Origin: a virus
Length of the DNA: 21,693 nt
Virus record (IMG/VR): IMGVR_UViG_3300034374_007114
Location: 1-21,693 of that record
Reading direction: 5' to 3' (one strand)
Below are positions 75-17,070 of the stretch, piece by piece; position 1 is the stretch's first letter, and every line of letters starts with the position of its first letter. A program made the position numbers and the translations under genes. The notes beneath the pieces are model-generated. The model was not told the origin of the DNA, ran no database searches, and worked only from the letters and a program-made list of their open reading frames with translations.

Positions 75-297
75 GTCATGCGTTGTTATTGGCGGTCATT
101 GGGCATCATTTTGGTTCGCTGAGCATCATTTGTTCTTAGTTGATTCATTTTGGTTCAATGATGTTCATTTGCGTCGCATGACAATCATTTGGTCGCTATG
201 AAGTTTTTTGATAATCATTTGCATCAGCGATTGTCATTTTGCGTCTATGACTATCATTTTGGTTCAATGATTATCTAAAGGTCATACGCAATCATTT
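75..297. repeat. Degenerate ~20-bp repeat array, non-coding
   Basis: The core TCATT(T) recurs with its first T near positions 96, 106, 126, 145, 165, 185, 215, 234, 254 and 292, a spacing close to 20 bp with two half-period slips. Each unit also tends to carry ATGA or a variant about 10 bp later, so units look like short imperfect palindromes of the form TCATT-N7-AATGA; the copies at 145-161 and 254-270 are the clearest. No open frame crosses the array and the period is not a multiple of three, so it is not a coding repeat. It lies downstream of all the leftward genes. Positions 1-74 hold nothing I recognise and may be a more diverged continuation. Possible roles are an iteron-type origin, operator sites or a packaging-end region; none is proven. 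Confidence 0.75.
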
Positions 298-597
298 AAG
301 GTCGCGGTTACCTCGGGAACTGTTGCATGACCTGTGTGCAGCGAGCAGAGGGCTTTGAGGGTCGCCAGCGATTATGTGGTCTGCAGTCCAGGGGTCATCT
401 GCCCGTGCGGTTCCACCACATATCCAGCAGTGAGTAGCCGTAGCCCTTACCAGCGCAGCGCGTTTCGGATAATCACCCTTGTAATGCTGACGGCGTGGTT
501 CACGATGTTTCAGGTCATACATTCGTTGGCACTTATTACATCTACTACCGCGTGGCGTAAGCCCTCCACAATTTAAGCAAGGTTTATTCAGCGGCAT
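292..597 (-). CDS. HNH endonuclease
   Basis: This 101-residue protein has the layout of a small phage HNH nuclease. An N-terminal zinc-knuckle-like pair of Cys couples (C7/C10 and C20/C23) is followed by the nuclease core: CWIC at 57-60, the D73-H74 catalytic pair in ADHI, and H88 with C91-N92 in HRSCN. Known members cut or nick double-stranded DNA with one divalent metal; in many tailed phages they sit beside the packaging genes and assist terminase. Here it is the last gene of the leftward series, next to the repeat array, so a packaging link is possible but terminase is not in the window. Its ATG lies 14 bases inside the end of the gene before it, which suggests coupled translation. It could instead be a free-standing homing-type HNH protein. 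Confidence 0.88.
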   Translation of the reverse strand: MPLNKPCLNCGGLTPRGSRCNKCQRMYDLKHREPRRQHYKGDYPKRAALVRATATHCWICGGTARADDPWTADHIIAGDPQSPLLAAHRSCNSSRGNRDLK

Positions 598-769
598 TGG
601 TGTCGTTTATCGGTTGCCAGATTGAGTTACTGAAACCGCGCACTATTCCATCTTGATTGCAATAGACCCATGTGGGCGAGTCTGGGTCGCAGTTGCATCC
701 GCTAATACGACGCGGTTCGTGATGAACAAAGTATTTACAGGTCAAACATAGTGCAACGAGACGACTCAT
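584..769 (-). CDS. Small Cys-rich protein, unknown function
   Basis: This 61-residue protein is not recognised. It begins MSRLVALCLTCKYF and has C8, C11, C25, C27 and C37, with several His between them, a pattern that suggests bound zinc. Its ATG shares four bases (ATGA) with the stop of the preceding glycosyltransferase gene, and its 3' end overlaps the HNH gene, so it sits inside one translationally coupled string. The position suggests a role with the modification/HNH genes, but no function can be assigned. Confidence 0.65.
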   Translation of the reverse strand: MSRLVALCLTCKYFVHHEPRRISGCNCDPDSPTWVYCNQDGIVRGFSNSIWQPINDTNAAE

Positions 770-1620
770 ATTTTCTGGTGTTTCTGGTTGATGATTTTAG
801 GTACGGTGTTTTCCCATTTGATTTGATGATGAAGGCGTGGATTAGTAGGGCCCATCTGTCTTACCTTTACGCACGACGGAGCCATCATTACCGTATACAT
901 GGACTTCATATATGTGCCTGTGTCCAAATACATTTCAGTCATACCACCAGCGAGTGATTGAGTAATGGCTGGCACCAAACATAGTTCATTTAAAGTAAAT
1001 ATCTTTTCGCCACGAATACCATTCATCACATAGGTATTCACATCGTCATTCATGCGACCCACGAAAGTAAGCGGTCGTTCAGTTCTAAATATCCATGAGT
1101 TCATCGCCTTACGGTTAATGAATTCTCGTTTGCGTATTTTGCTTCCGCCGATATGGTCACCGCCCTGCGACATCGCCACCGTAACCGCATCGCTCGCTTC
1201 CATAAAGTCAATCAACGCCTCAAATAATGCATCCAGTTTTTTCGTAGGTATTCCACGCAACACACCATTCTCAAGTTTCCGATAACCGAACCATTGATAG
1301 TCGTCATCTAACTGAATGTGATAATCCAAACCGAGGTCACGCGCAATATCAAATGCAGCGTTACGGGCGAACACCGTCGCCCTTCTATCCGTGCGCGTAT
1401 CAGCGATATCAAAAGTTTTTCCGATAGCCGCTTTATCAAACATCACCACATTCTCTTCACCGAACACTTTGCGATAGTCGTCGCCCGTCTTATCTTCGTT
1501 GTCAATCACGATAACGACGCGACCCGTGTACCCATATTTTCGTAGCGTGTTATAAGTCAGAACATTGTGTGGTCTGCCATGCGTCAGAATGAACGCGGCA
1601 TAGTTGTATTTACTCGTCAT
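766..1620 (-). CDS. TET-associated-type DNA glycosyltransferase (probable)
   Basis: The 284-residue protein starts with a nucleotide-sugar-binding-like segment (AAFILTHGRP, residues 8-17, then VVIVIDNED around 35-43) and has an acidic DDD at 105-107 in YHIQLDDDYQWF, the usual metal/sugar-nucleotide site of GT-A fold enzymes. An RN pair at 86-87 precedes it. This arrangement resembles the TET/JBP-associated glycosyltransferases that comparative genomics links to phage DNA base hypermodification, where they would add a sugar to an oxidised or otherwise modified base. The immediately upstream ParB-like gene is a recurrent partner of that family. I chose the ATG at 1620 (MTSKYNY), overlapping the ParB stop by 11 bases, over the longer 1671 start, which would overlap by 62. 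No TET/JBP oxygenase was seen in the window. A glycosyltransferase acting on another substrate remains possible. Confidence 0.72.
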   Translation of the reverse strand: MTSKYNYAAFILTHGRPHNVLTYNTLRKYGYTGRVVIVIDNEDKTGDDYRKVFGEENVVMFDKAAIGKTFDIADTRTDRRATVFARNAAFDIARDLGLDYHIQLDDDYQWFGYRKLENGVLRGIPTKKLDALFEALIDFMEASDAVTVAMSQGGDHIGGSKIRKREFINRKAMNSWIFRTERPLTFVGRMNDDVNTYVMNGIRGEKIFTLNELCLVPAITQSLAGGMTEMYLDTGTYMKSMYTVMMAPSCVKVRQMGPTNPRLHHQIKWENTVPKIINQKHQKI

Positions 1621-2392
1621 CTTCGGAGTCTCGCAATTCGGAAATTGTTTTAGCGAATACTGCGAAACCATTTGCTATCGCATCTCCAATGTCAATAATT
1701 ACGAGTGCCGACTGTTCCATCAGCCGTTGCACCTCTGGAGACATATGCGGATAGAACTCGGCAATCTTTTGATAATTAAACACAATGTGTCGTGTAGCCG
1801 CTGTCGTAAGGAAGTTTCGTATTTCGTCCGACATATCTGTTTTGCGGATAGCCTCAAGCAGTTCATCTGTTTTCGTTGTGTCAAACAATTCTGTCGTAAC
1901 AGGTTCTTCTCCAACGATTTCGTATTGTGGGATTTTTGTTGCCTGACTATAGGTAACTGAGTCGGCACTACCCGTATCAAACTCCAATGATTTAATCAGG
2001 TCATCCAAGTCGTTACCCGAATACAGCGTCTTTTCTAGTCCTGCATCGCTCGCGCTTAATTCTTTTAGCAAGTCAATAAGTGCGCTGTCGTCATATGATG
2101 CCAAGTCATTTGTGCGGTTATCGGCAAGCAGAATTCGTACCGCTTGGTCGTCATCACAATCAACATAAGTTGCTGCGATTTCGTTCCAGCCAAGAGATTT
2201 TGCAGCCTGAAAAGTGTGATTGCCTGCAAGAATTTGATTCGTTGACCGCTGCACCACTATCGGTCTGTATTGACCATGTGCTTTTAGTGATTCGGCAATT
2301 GCGCCGATATCGCCTTGCCGTACATTCTTTGGATGTACGCGAAACTGGCTAATTGGTTGTGCAAGTGACAACAACGATTCTCTGATTTGCAT
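1610..2392 (-). CDS. ParB-like nuclease domain protein
   Basis: Residues about 10-110 form a ParB/Srx-type domain: VHPKNVRQGDIGAIAESL, then GQYRPIVVQ, then ILAGNHTFQAAKSLGW, followed by DDDQAVRILLADNRTNDLASYD. The classical GERRxxA box appears as GNHTFQAA, as in many phage ParB-like proteins. The C-terminal half (about 150-260) is a separate conserved-looking region ending in RLMEQSALVIIDIGDAIANG. In phages such proteins occur beside DNA methylases and base-modifying enzymes and may bind, nick or use nucleotides near the modified site; classical ParB works in plasmid partition with ParA, and no ParA is present here. It overlaps the glycosyltransferase gene, so the two are probably made together. 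The ParB-domain call is firm; the job is inferred. Confidence 0.85.
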   Translation of the reverse strand: MQIRESLLSLAQPISQFRVHPKNVRQGDIGAIAESLKAHGQYRPIVVQRSTNQILAGNHTFQAAKSLGWNEIAATYVDCDDDQAVRILLADNRTNDLASYDDSALIDLLKELSASDAGLEKTLYSGNDLDDLIKSLEFDTGSADSVTYSQATKIPQYEIVGEEPVTTELFDTTKTDELLEAIRKTDMSDEIRNFLTTAATRHIVFNYQKIAEFYPHMSPEVQRLMEQSALVIIDIGDAIANGFAVFAKTISELRDSEDDE

Positions 2393-2418
2393 GGAATAAC
2401 CTCCGCCAGAAGGTTAGC

Positions 2419-3156
2419 CTACATTTCTGAGAACCTACGACCATTGATTTTCTTATTGAAATGGCGAATGTTATTGGCTGGGATACCCACCCTGTTCGTC
2501 GGCAGCATTATTGCTAACAAATCCGATGCCGACTGGCTTTTATATCCAGCAGCGACTATTGCTTCCTCGCTTGGGAATACATCCGCGTGGCGTTGAACGC
2601 CGATTAAATTATCTTCCAAACCGCCTGTGGAGAACAGATAGCGAAAGTTAATGGGGAATTCGGGGTGTGTCATAAATAATGAAACTTCTTTTGTATAGGC
2701 GTAAAACAAAACATCTGGAGTTTGTTCTGCAATAGATATCCATAGATGTAAATACCAGTCCTCAAAGAAGTCTCCAGCGTCATGTATCCGAACTGCCTTA
2801 CCGCCTGTGTTAATCCATTTTCTTAAATACGGGTCTAACAATTCCATTTGTGCACCTTCAGGAAGTTTCCGCGCAACACCATCGGGTCTGAATTTGCGTG
2901 CTTTTAATTCGTCACACATCATCTTCTCAAATTCGTAGGGCCCATTTAACACCAATTCCAAATTGCGCCGATGTGCTTCCTTCACTTTCGGGAATAGATA
3001 TGTTCCATTTCGTGCATAACAAACTTTTGCACACGCACCAGCCTGTGGGCAAGTCACAAATAATTCGTTATTAGATAGGCGTGTGTACCACGCAGGAATT
3101 GTCCAGTTCCAAATACCGTGTGGCTTTAATTCGCTATTCTGAGTTAGTAACGCCAT
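2419..3156 (-). CDS. Gp88-family phage protein, possible Fe-S enzyme
   Basis: The 245-residue protein matches by eye the phage 'gene product 88' family. Early hallmarks are HGIWNWTIPAW and a cysteine cluster at C36, C42 and C46 (CPQAGACAKVCYARNG), followed in the middle by RIHDAGDFFEDWYLHLW (from residue 123) and FYAYTKE. Three closely spaced Cys followed by YA and a later GDF/W block recall DUF5131-type proteins related to radical SAM enzymes, so an iron-sulfur cofactor is plausible, but this is inference. It comes 26 bases before the ParB-like gene, so it may belong to the putative DNA-modification cluster. The ATG lies 23 bases inside the end of the small zinc-ribbon gene. Confidence 0.7.
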   Translation of the reverse strand: MALLTQNSELKPHGIWNWTIPAWYTRLSNNELFVTCPQAGACAKVCYARNGTYLFPKVKEAHRRNLELVLNGPYEFEKMMCDELKARKFRPDGVARKLPEGAQMELLDPYLRKWINTGGKAVRIHDAGDFFEDWYLHLWISIAEQTPDVLFYAYTKEVSLFMTHPEFPINFRYLFSTGGLEDNLIGVQRHADVFPSEEAIVAAGYKSQSASDLLAIMLPTNRVGIPANNIRHFNKKINGRRFSEM

Positions 3157-3794: not shown

Positions 3795-4805
3795 TTATCG
3801 GACAAGTGTTAGAAGTTTGTTGACCGCTTCCCTGTCCTTCGTTTCTGTTACTCCCGTGAGTGTATCCATCATGTTTCGCTCTGCGCGAATCGTGCTGCCA
3901 CGAGTCGGACGGAGATGCTGACGGAAAGTATTAACTGATTGGATAACGCCGAAGCCTGTATTCTTCCAAGGGCTAACACGAGGGTCGTTGTTCCACAGGT
4001 TCATGTAGGCTGCACGGTCAGCCTCAATTTTAGTTAAACCTGTTTTTGGTGTTTCGGTGTTAACTGGTGGCAATATCCTGTCTACGAAGTTAGAGAATTG
4101 TGTATCAGTTACTTTGATGTCAAGTAACTGCTTAATCTCTTTTGTAAACGATTCGCCCAATTGGAATACGATGCGAAGAGCATCACGCGCTTGTGACAAA
4201 ACCATCTGACTGTTTGCCGTATGGCGCACACGATATTCTTGCCCATCCTCGCTTAGTGCTGCTGCTCGCGTGTTATCACATACAACGATGGTTACGACTC
4301 GCTTGTATGTGGTTGCGATGCTGCCGTTAAACGAGGTTGTTGCAAGCAAGTGAGGACGAAATTCAACGCCAGAAACTTGCATATTCTCTGGCATCTCAAT
4401 CTGTACCCACGCAACTGCACCGCCCTTAAGTAATCCAGCGGAACCGATTGCCAATTCACTATCGTCAATCAGGTCAGAGACCTTGCCGAGCAACGCTTCG
4501 TCGTACTGGTGTGGAACATACGAGGAACTGGGAACACCCAGAACTTCGTAGGTATCGTCACGAACAATTGCCATTCGGTTAGGTACTTGAGTTGCTTCGT
4601 GACCTTCACGATGTACCCACATGGGAACTGCTTGTGCTTTCCAGTTAAACAAACGCCGACGCACATCCTCAATTGGAATTGCACCTGCGTAGTGATTTGC
4701 TTCTGCACCTTGGTCGGATGCTTTATAGTGCCACGCTTCTCCGCGTTGCTCTGTGAACCCAATCAGAACATTCTGATTGAGCCATTCGGATGTTTCGGTA
4801 CTCAC
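3795..4805 (-). CDS. DUF932 / phage-plasmid-like protein (TIGR03299 type)
   Basis: The 336-residue protein has the look of the DUF932 family: EQRGEAWHY near the N-terminus, YEVLGVPSSSYVPHQYDEAL, WVQIEMPENM, TSFNGSIATTYKRVVTIVVCDNT in the middle and TGFGVIQSVNTFRQH near the end. The length is usual for the family. These proteins are frequent in phages and plasmids; their biochemical role is not settled. The start is GTG, set by a strong AGGAGG and a GTGA overlap with the stop of the 62-residue membrane-protein gene. A hairpin follows the stop. Confidence 0.82.
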   Translation of the reverse strand: MSTETSEWLNQNVLIGFTEQRGEAWHYKASDQGAEANHYAGAIPIEDVRRRLFNWKAQAVPMWVHREGHEATQVPNRMAIVRDDTYEVLGVPSSSYVPHQYDEALLGKVSDLIDDSELAIGSAGLLKGGAVAWVQIEMPENMQVSGVEFRPHLLATTSFNGSIATTYKRVVTIVVCDNTRAAALSEDGQEYRVRHTANSQMVLSQARDALRIVFQLGESFTKEIKQLLDIKVTDTQFSNFVDRILPPVNTETPKTGLTKIEADRAAYMNLWNNDPRVSPWKNTGFGVIQSVNTFRQHLRPTRGSTIRAERNMMDTLTGVTETKDREAVNKLLTLVR

Positions 4806-15271: not shown

Positions 15272-16177
15272 TTACGCTACTACGAGTGAGCCTGTGTCGT
15301 TGAAGGTGTGGATTGTGTAGATGCCCGAGGTAGTGATAGTTCCACCAGTAACAGTAAACGGATTATTTGCCGTGACATAACGAATGATTACGACACCCTT
15401 ACCGCCAGCACCACCAGTAGCGCCACCACCGCCACCACCACCACCACCCGTGTTTGCTGTACCAGCAAACCCAGACTGCTGGCCACCGCTGTATGCGCCA
15501 CCATTACCGCCACCACCGTCACCGCCAGTGCGATAGGTCGCACTTGTACCGCCACCAGCACCACCGCCAGCACGAGTAACCGATGAACCAGTTATGGACG
15601 AAGCAAGACCGTCGCCACCAAAACCAGCAGAATCCGTGTTTCCCGCTTCGGTTGCTCCACCCCCGCCACCGCCGTAGAAAGTTGGCGAGACACCGTAGCC
15701 ATCGCCACCGCCAAACCCTTGATTCGCTGTTCCCGCAGCAAGACCTTGTGAACCGCCCGTGTTCGGACCAGCACCACCGCCACCCGACCCACCAGTTTGA
15801 GCAGCAAGATTAGATGCGCCACGCCCGCCACCAGTTGAAGTAATAGTCGTAATGTCTGAACCAGACAATGAAGTATTTGTTCCACTTGTGTTTGCAGAAC
15901 CACCGCCGCCAACCGCGACTGTGTATGTGTTCGGTGTCAAAGTAATGGTTGCTTCGGCTGAGGAGTTCCTTCCAGAACTTTCACCGCTTACCGAAGAACG
16001 ATAACCCCCCGCACCGCCACCACCACCGTTGTAACTTGTGCCAGAACCAGAACCACCACCGCCACCACCAGCGATAACCAAGTATTCAACACCAGCAATT
16101 TCATAAACGGGTTCAGTCCAAGCATTACCGAACCATTGACCAACAAGAGTACTGGGGCGAGTGCGTGCGCCTTTCAT
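15272..16177 (-). CDS. Glycine-rich tail fibre/adhesin paralogue 2
   Basis: The 301-residue protein opens RPSTLVGQWFGNA (7-19), then VEYLVIAGGGGGG, then a long Gly/Ser/Thr/Asn region (about 35-270) with dozens of GGG runs, and ends in GGKGVVIIRY and TVTGGTITTSG with a hydrophobic YTIHTFNDTGSLVVA. This is the composition of phage receptor-binding glycine-rich domains, such as the polyglycine sandwich of T-even gp38. It is a close paralogue of the preceding gene; the two share both ends, and the ATG overlaps the preceding stop (ATGA). The Gly-rich core is the part that would vary between phages and set host range. Confidence 0.72.
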   Translation of the reverse strand: MKGARTRPSTLVGQWFGNAWTEPVYEIAGVEYLVIAGGGGGGSGSGTSYNGGGGGAGGYRSSVSGESSGRNSSAEATITLTPNTYTVAVGGGGSANTSGTNTSLSGSDITTITSTGGGRGASNLAAQTGGSGGGGAGPNTGGSQGLAAGTANQGFGGGDGYGVSPTFYGGGGGGATEAGNTDSAGFGGDGLASSITGSSVTRAGGGAGGGTSATYRTGGDGGGGNGGAYSGGQQSGFAGTANTGGGGGGGGGATGGAGGKGVVIIRYVTANNPFTVTGGTITTSGIYTIHTFNDTGSLVVA

Positions 16178-17070
16178 GCGATCACCAAACTACCTGTGTC
16201 ATTGAACGTATGAATCGTGTAGTTCCCAGAAGTTGTAATGGTGCCACCCGTAACTGATGTAATCCGAGCATTTGCCAAATCTGCGGTCAGGTAACGAACG
16301 ATTACAACACCCTTGCCACCCGCTCCGCCTGCACGATTGACGGCATTGTTGTCAAACAGTCCACCGCCACCACCGCCACCGGTGTTTGCTGTGCCTGCGC
16401 CAGCGTTAGAGGTGAAGGCCTTTGCGCCTGCACCGCCTCCGCCTGTTCCAGCAGTTCCACCATTTCCGCCATCCTTGCCCGAACATCCGCCACCGCCACC
16501 ACCACGGGTAACAGAAGAACCTGTGATGCTTGATGCCGAACCTGCACCACCAGCACCACCGTTGCTTTGGTCTGTCGCACCAGAAGCATTACCGCCAACA
16601 CCGCCAGCACCACCACCGCCACCACCAGGATGATTCCCAGCAGTTCCACCATCACCACCAGCATTGCCTTGACCTGATGTGCCAGCCGCACCATCACCAG
16701 CAGGACCACCACCGCCACCAGAACCACCTGTTGAACCGTTGTTTGTGTTGCGACCACCACCGCCACCACCCGTTGAGGTGACTGTTGAGAATGATGAGTT
16801 TGAACCGTTGGCTCCATTTGTGCCAGAGCCGACTGCCCCACCACCACCTACGGTGGCTGTGTAACTTCCTGGACTCAATACGAGGGTTGATGTTTGGTAT
16901 CCACCGCCACCACCGCCGCCACCGCCAACATCGCCAGCGGGACCAGCGCCGCCGCCGCCACCAGCAATGACTAGGTATTCAACTGATAGCGGTGCCGAAC
17001 CCAAAGCGTTACCAAACCATTGACCCACCAGAGTTGATGGGCGTTCACGCTGACCGTAACGCAAAGTCAT
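16174..17070 (-). CDS. Glycine-rich tail fibre/adhesin paralogue 1
   Basis: The 298-residue protein has the same start (RPSTLVGQWFGNA, 11-23), the VEYLVIAGGGGG segment, and the same ending (GGKGVVIVRY, TVTGGTITTSG, YTIHTFNDTGSLVIA) as the following gene, with a Gly-rich middle that differs in detail. The pair probably arose by tandem duplication. It is expected on the virion tail tip, binding the host surface. Proline-rich open frames on the opposite strand are only the complement of its GGX codons. Confidence 0.72.
   Translation of the reverse strand: MTLRYGQRERPSTLVGQWFGNALGSAPLSVEYLVIAGGGGGAGPAGDVGGGGGGGGGYQTSTLVLSPGSYTATVGGGGAVGSGTNGANGSNSSFSTVTSTGGGGGGRNTNNGSTGGSGGGGGPAGDGAAGTSGQGNAGGDGGTAGNHPGGGGGGAGGVGGNASGATDQSNGGAGGAGSASSITGSSVTRGGGGGGCSGKDGGNGGTAGTGGGGAGAKAFTSNAGAGTANTGGGGGGGLFDNNAVNRAGGAGGKGVVIVRYLTADLANARITSVTGGTITTSGNYTIHTFNDTGSLVIA

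Follow-up and report, generated by a model that had tools for sequence, protein, structure and literature searches.

The ParB-like gene and the adjacent TAGT-family glycosyltransferase gene described here probably form a self-contained cassette for DNA base glycosylation, a reading to which we assign a probability of about 0.7. The cassette occupies a slot for interchangeable DNA-modification enzymes, and no enzyme that would place a chemical handle on the base is visible with it. Its components are the glycosyltransferase and the C-terminal domain (CTD) of the ParB-like protein. A role for the locus in DNA modification is well supported by comparison with related loci.

Results

The cassette was studied in an incomplete virus record of 21,693 bases (IMG/VR IMGVR_UViG_3300034374_007114), referred to as the window, in which all genes discussed lie on the minus strand (Table 1). 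Family matches to WhiB and to a YqaJ/RecE-like exonuclease, together with a tape measure protein recognised from its sequence, mark the virus as a tailed phage, and its host was probably an actinobacterium. Two successive glycine-rich proteins with similar ends (15272-17070) appear to have arisen by tandem duplication of a gene for a tail or structural protein. A DUF932 protein is encoded upstream of GP88 (3795-4805), a position that is kept in several relatives.

Table 1. Features of the slot and its flanks in the window.
Feature	Position	Strand	Basis
TAGT-family glycosyltransferase, 284 aa	766..1620	-	PF20691, phrog_842, motifs, start site; frame open to 1671 (301 aa)
CTD, helical domain at the C-terminus of the ParB-like protein, residues ~146-260	1610..1957	-	Distribution across TAGT loci; core of the AF2 model
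ParB_N domain of the ParB-like protein, residues 1-139	1976..2392	-	PF02195
ParB-like gene, whole	1610-2392	-	PF02195, E 2e-8 over residues 21-92 only
GP88-family protein, upstream neighbour of the slot	2419..3156	-	PF17338, E 3e-39; AF2 model
Small HNH protein, downstream flank of the slot	292..597	-	phrog_338, E 1e-5
61-aa Cys-containing ORF between TAGT and HNH	584..769	-	No family match; weak relatives at few loci only

The earlier note on this DNA, made from the letters alone, had proposed a Gp88 gene, a ParB-like gene and a glycosyltransferase gene in this region, and curated profiles recovered all three as placed. The glycosyltransferase is a true member of the TAGT family (PF20691 profile search, E 1.8e-35, 123 bits against a curated cut-off of 27.5; phrog_842, E 2e-69). 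Alignment with 31 homologues showed that the DD pair (D123/D124 in the 301-aa numbering), R103 and the MN[DE]D, TQ..GG.T and RxHH motifs are invariant or nearly so, and that the acidic metal/donor motif (DDD/EDD) is intact and invariant. A PDB sequence search with the TAGT alignment returned no significant match. The start of the protein is best placed at the ATG at 1620, as the earlier note had it, because homologues begin there and because the resulting ATG...TAA overlap with the ParB stop is 11 nt. This overlap is a coupling-type arrangement.

The ParB-like protein belongs to the ParB/Srx superfamily by its ParB_N domain, which scored 34.7 bits against PF02195 (cut-off 26.3). Its ParB_N is 59-72% identical to those of ParBs carrying TET, methyltransferase (MTase), Mom or Dpd cassettes, the closest (72%) being a TET-cassette ParB. 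The genomic context of this gene is DNA modification. When the proteins encoded before TAGT genes were aligned, ParB_N was variable and sometimes missing, while the C-terminal ~100 residues were always kept, with the consensus YSxxxxxPxYE...RHxVFNYxKIAEYYAHxxxExQxLMExSALVIID. The AF2 model of the CTD has a core pLDDT of 94-98 and no recognisable active site; structure searches with it gave nothing below E 0.05 in Foldseek, only Z scores of 3 or less in VIA and no PDB match. A metal site considered at H72/E96/D104 (numbering of locus L100) was rejected because L107 and L119 have Leu in place of H72. One ParB-CTD gene (MG913376.1, 29645-30418, L086) is labelled an adenine-specific methyltransferase, likely a misannotation.

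The association of ParB with TAGT, which the earlier note had pointed out in the window, recurs far beyond chance in a neighborhood survey of about 280 loci. A partner gene lies upstream of TAGT at 76 of 80 viral loci, the remaining four being cut off upstream, and the ParB-TAGT pair was found at 38 of 39 bacterial-genome loci, where the exception is a partial, 33%-identical match at a contig end. The specific partner, overlooked in that note, is the CTD. Across the loci compared, the steady partner of this TAGT branch is this ~100-residue domain rather than ParB_N. The CTD is present at essentially every TAGT locus with sufficient upstream sequence. Among 155 ParB_N-containing ORFs, a count that includes contigs fetched more than once (distinct N-domain sequences: 99 TAGT and 26 others), 109 carry the CTD and all 109 have a TAGT downstream. 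The other 46 are linked to other cassettes, with the exception of two split reading frames that have the CTD in the next ORF. The CTD is absent from the approximately 30 ParBs linked to TET, methyltransferase, Mom or DpdA.

When the CTD alone was taken as the starting point of an independent search, each of the 80 loci obtained had a TAGT. Most of these loci were without a detectable ParB_N, although ParB_N was sought with only two queries here and divergent copies may have escaped detection. Among GenBank phages, the CTD was found in 28 records, each of which also encodes a TAGT; a haloarchaeal virus and Vibrio phages of 191-195 kb are among them. The CTD stands alone, without ParB_N, in many phages. 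In contrast, T6-like TAGTs in Aeromonas phages, which share 24-26% identity with the window protein, lack the CTD. Natural negative controls are provided by three phages with a decayed TAGT. In Lactobacillus phage Ld17, a sister of c5 (L235, 75-833), no ParB gene precedes the TAGT, whose sequence is shortened by an internal deletion and ends in a divergent, apparently frameshifted C-terminus; phages LL-Ku and Ld25A show only partial TAGT matches, and a search for the CTD gave no match in these three records. Together these results lead to the conclusion that the CTD is an obligate partner of this TAGT branch and that the pairing holds in both directions.

Loci with the layout GP88 - ParB_N - X - HNH - TerS - TerL differ in the content of X. 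In place of the TAGT, X was found to be Tet_JBP with a divergent TAGT-like glycosyltransferase and a P4H-type oxygenase (L129), a C5-methyltransferase (L157), a Mom-like GNAT (L172), methyltransferases fused to ParB, with an N6/N4 MTase-ParB fusion identified (L146, L147, L174), DpdA-like, DUF6884, QueC and PTPS/QueD genes (L145), or QueC, QueD, QueE and FolE-like genes recognised partly by eye (L176). The glycosyltransferases of TET loci are only very divergent TAGT-like proteins (PF20691, E 5e-4 to 0.09). Two TET cassettes carry a MobA-like nucleotidyltransferase (NTP transferase) and an APH-like kinase in place of the glycosyltransferase (L138, 4498-5948; L142, 7438-9196, the latter also with a small HAD-like protein), which suggests another hypermodification. 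An ABC ATPase and a GNAT, fused or adjacent, fill the ParB slot in two further loci (L158, 5467-6597, a fusion, phrog_11143; L155, 2763-4023) and are a candidate Mom-like modification.

The flanks of these loci are closely related. The downstream HNH gene is kept in TAGT, TET, C5-MTase and GNAT loci and is followed in relatives by TerS and TerL. Comparison of a TAGT locus (L005) with a TET locus (L169) gave 83% identity for HNH and 92% for TerL, and 92% for GP88 when the GP88 of the sister phage L003 served as query; the corresponding values for GP88 and HNH were 90% and 89% against the C5-MTase locus L157, and 89% and 91% against the ABC-GNAT locus L158. The interior between the flanks gave no match in any of the three comparisons. 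Furthermore, a tree of ParB_N interleaves the cassette types and calls for at least 17 cassette changes where the minimum possible is 6, although it was built on a short alignment and has many open forks. We therefore read the window's locus as an interchangeable DNA-modification slot, because relatives with 83-92% identical flanks hold TET/JBP, C5-MTase, Mom-like or DpdA/Que genes there. TAGT with CTD and TET are alternatives at this locus. Exchange of this kind is defined by location, which leaves sameness of substrate unproven, and many of the records are fragments.

The position of the pair also bears on the possibility that the TAGT acts on an acceptor other than DNA, such as terminase, the capsid or some component of the host, with the fusion to ParB being incidental. 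GT-A enzymes of the GT2-like group act on many acceptors, a breadth that would allow this, and at most ParB_N-containing loci the pair adjoins terminase and head genes. However, every cassette exchanged at the slot acts on DNA bases, and where the CTD occurs without ParB_N, the neighbors of the pair are DNA polymerase A and clamp-like genes rather than structural genes (terminase is also among these neighbors). We regard a non-DNA acceptor as very unlikely and DNA as the probable substrate.

Several accessory genes accompany CTD-TAGT pairs. One large clade has a histidine phosphatase-cytidylyltransferase fusion between ParB and TAGT (L024, 5676-6662, and about 50 similar loci), in which the cytidylyltransferase is closest to glycerol-3-phosphate cytidylyltransferase (TagD-like). 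A TagD-like cytidylyltransferase without the histidine phosphatase is found at other loci, and the window's own clade is without a cytidylyltransferase. The fusion could possibly supply a CDP-activated donor for DNA modification. A radical SAM protein with a Cys-rich C-terminus adjoins CTD and TAGT or lies between them at seven loci in phages and prophages (L236, 6205-7167; L301, 4203-5180; L241, 3381-4361; L251, L099, L093 and L260), its copies being about 50-63% identical. A class I SAM methyltransferase occurs beside CTD/TAGT at six loci (L113, 5883-6719, and five more). In a 115 kb phage (L071, 8240-13209), there are five successive TAGT-family genes, the first of them divergent, with a lone TagD-like cytidylyltransferase among them. 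Such genes (cytidylyltransferase, radical SAM, methyltransferase and several TAGT copies) would fit donor synthesis and product tailoring.

The earlier note had seen no TET/JBP oxygenase in the window and had suggested that one might lie beyond its edge. We likewise found no TET/JBP among the window ORFs scanned. A near-identical record with a 100% identical TAGT (L002) also ends near that gene, and other relatives, consisting of 30-149 kb records and complete genomes, were used for the search beyond the edge; viral contigs among these may be fragments. PF12851 (TET/JBP) was absent from all 53 TAGT records and from 28 more (0/23 and 0/5 CTD-TAGT or related records), so that the TET/JBP association that gives the family its name does not extend to the window's type in these records. 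PF00303 (thymidylate synthase/hydroxymethylase) was found in 0 of 23 and 1 of 29 relatives, the sole match being the 195 kb Vibrio phage Va1, and the only PF00145 (C5-methyltransferase) match in CTD-TAGT records was a fragment in L010. PF13640 (2OG oxygenase) matched none of 32 CTD-TAGT records and was ruled out as the handle maker. The radical SAM family PF04055 was rejected as a general handle maker, since only 8 of 32 CTD-TAGT records match and few of the matches adjoin TAGT. The positive controls T6 (including PF00303), Nigel, all five TET-cassette records, L157 and L129 were matched. A TET partner outside the window is thus unlikely.

A classical two-step route would have the handle made on the base by an enzyme of an unrecognised family, whose gene lies elsewhere in the phage genome or in the host, and then glycosylated by the TAGT. 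T6 TAGT works in this way (PMC13216743) and adjoins a hydroxymethylase-type gene, the window record is incomplete, and the radical SAM/SPASM enzyme at seven CTD-TAGT loci could serve as such an enzyme. Nevertheless, almost every larger or complete CTD-TAGT record is without a match to PF12851, PF00303, PF00145 or PF13640, and the complete genomes of 32-65 kb (c5, 32 kb; jlb1; NTR1; HHTV-2) lack all four families. The T-even-type arrangement, with a pyrimidine hydroxymethylase in the same genome, was not found in 28 of 29 and 23 of 23 relatives. This absence appears too consistent for chance loss, and we consider a two-step route unlikely.

In the window, GP88 abuts the slot, and the earlier note had offered it as a member of a hypermodification cluster and as a candidate enzyme. 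The protein is a GP88-family member (PF17338, 135.7 bits against a cut-off of 24.4), and the Cys cluster that had been noticed, C36, C42 and C46 (C-x5-C-x3-C), is invariant in 48 relatives. The best VIA matches of its AF2 model (pLDDT 92) are mostly radical SAM proteins, with viperin at the top (Z 6.1) and SkfB, NifB, TYW1 and CteB at Z 5.0-5.4, which is suggestive only of a radical-SAM-like fold. GP88 might on this basis be the missing radical-SAM-like enzyme that functionalises the base for glycosylation by the TAGT. Yet all of these Z scores are below 8, Foldseek gave nothing significant with the model (none below E 0.05), a PDB sequence search gave no significant match, and neither a PF04055 match nor a CX3CX2C motif was found. 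GP88 is present at only 5 of 80 TAGT loci, where it is confined to close relatives of the window, and at 57 of 80 GP88 loci ParB, TAGT and TET are all absent from the stretch examined. It adjoins TAGT, TET, MTase and GNAT cassettes alike. GP88 was therefore rejected as a TAGT partner, and we give almost no weight to its acting as the functionalising enzyme. Its adjacency to TAGT is real in close relatives, and the ParB-TAGT part of the proposed cluster stands as a modification slot by exchange; GP88 is a neighbor of that slot, not a TAGT-specific member.

Discussion

TAGT of T6 adds glucose to glucosylated 5hmC, and a GT-A fold has been published for it; solitary TAGTs occur in 288 of 753 phage genomes encoding such glycosyltransferases, and their function is open (PMC13216743). 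The founding TAGT, the beta-glucosyl-HMC-alpha-glucosyltransferase of T-even phages (T6/T2), is likewise phage-encoded and shares PF20691 and the GT-A type acidic motif with the window protein. In contrast to the T6 enzyme, which acts on alpha-glucosyl-5hmC, the window type comes with an obligate ParB-CTD partner and with no handle enzyme in view.

A ParB-like gene beside a modification enzyme is not unique to this cassette. DpdB, a ParB-superfamily, ParB-like ATPase, assists DpdA (PMC12839542), and Dpd and phage 7-deazaguanine systems (PMC12839542, PMC6392294) similarly combine a ParB-superfamily protein with a DNA base-modifying enzyme; DpdA and Que cassettes occur in the same slot as that of the window. 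These systems differ in that catalysis is by a transglycosylase instead of a glycosyltransferase, and the CTD is absent. CmoX carboxymethylcytosine loci likewise have a ParBc protein (PF02195) recurrently beside a DNA-modification enzyme, but the enzyme is another one and no TAGT is present (PMC12783734). Phage TET/JBP loci, including gp1-gp4 of mycobacteriophage Nigel, also show a ParB-like gene, a modification gene and terminase, with an orthologous ParB_N. The order in Nigel is gp1, TET, P-loop kinase and terminase, and gp1 aligns with the ParBs studied here while having no Pfam match. Loci of the L129 type share flanks with the window phages; they differ in holding Tet_JBP with the divergent TAGT-like glycosyltransferase, and their ParB lacks the CTD. 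Phage loci combining TET/JBP and a glycosyltransferase were reportedly described by Iyer et al. in 2013. Our literature search found no paper linking this TAGT to ParB.

Based on these comparisons, we propose the following model. ParB_N would be the adaptor common to all cassettes, perhaps through DNA loading or an NTP switch, which loads or licenses the complex on DNA in a manner comparable to DpdB. The CTD would be the TAGT-specific coupling or substrate-presenting subunit, which may dock the TAGT or present the base. The TAGT would then take a sugar, or a group resembling one, from a nucleotide donor and attach it to DNA, late in infection and next to packaging. Because no handle made by TET or a hydroxymethylase is visible, the acceptor could be a canonical base itself or one that the CTD helps to make. 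This most specific form, in which the sugar is placed directly on a canonical base (e.g. on an exocyclic amine) or the CTD helps create the acceptor, is tentative, and we rate it at slightly less than an even chance. The founding TAGT requires its substrate base to be hydroxylated and glucosylated beforehand, so that activity on a canonical base would be without precedent in the family.

If this most specific form is correct, a single cassette would carry out DNA glycosylation independently of TET and hydroxymethylase. Its carriers would range from a Haloarcula virus to gut, Lactobacillus, enteric and aquatic phages, and some variants would build their own donor, a CDP-activated group made by a TagD-like enzyme. 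One branch of the solitary TAGTs thereby gains an obligate partner domain and a slot that puts them on a par with known base-modification enzymes, and the pair offers a clear two-protein system for testing. Additionally, the phage "ParB-like partition proteins" found beside terminase may be recast as the common adaptor of many DNA-modification cassettes, a role that would explain their recurrent misannotation as partition proteins, nucleases or adenine methyltransferases.
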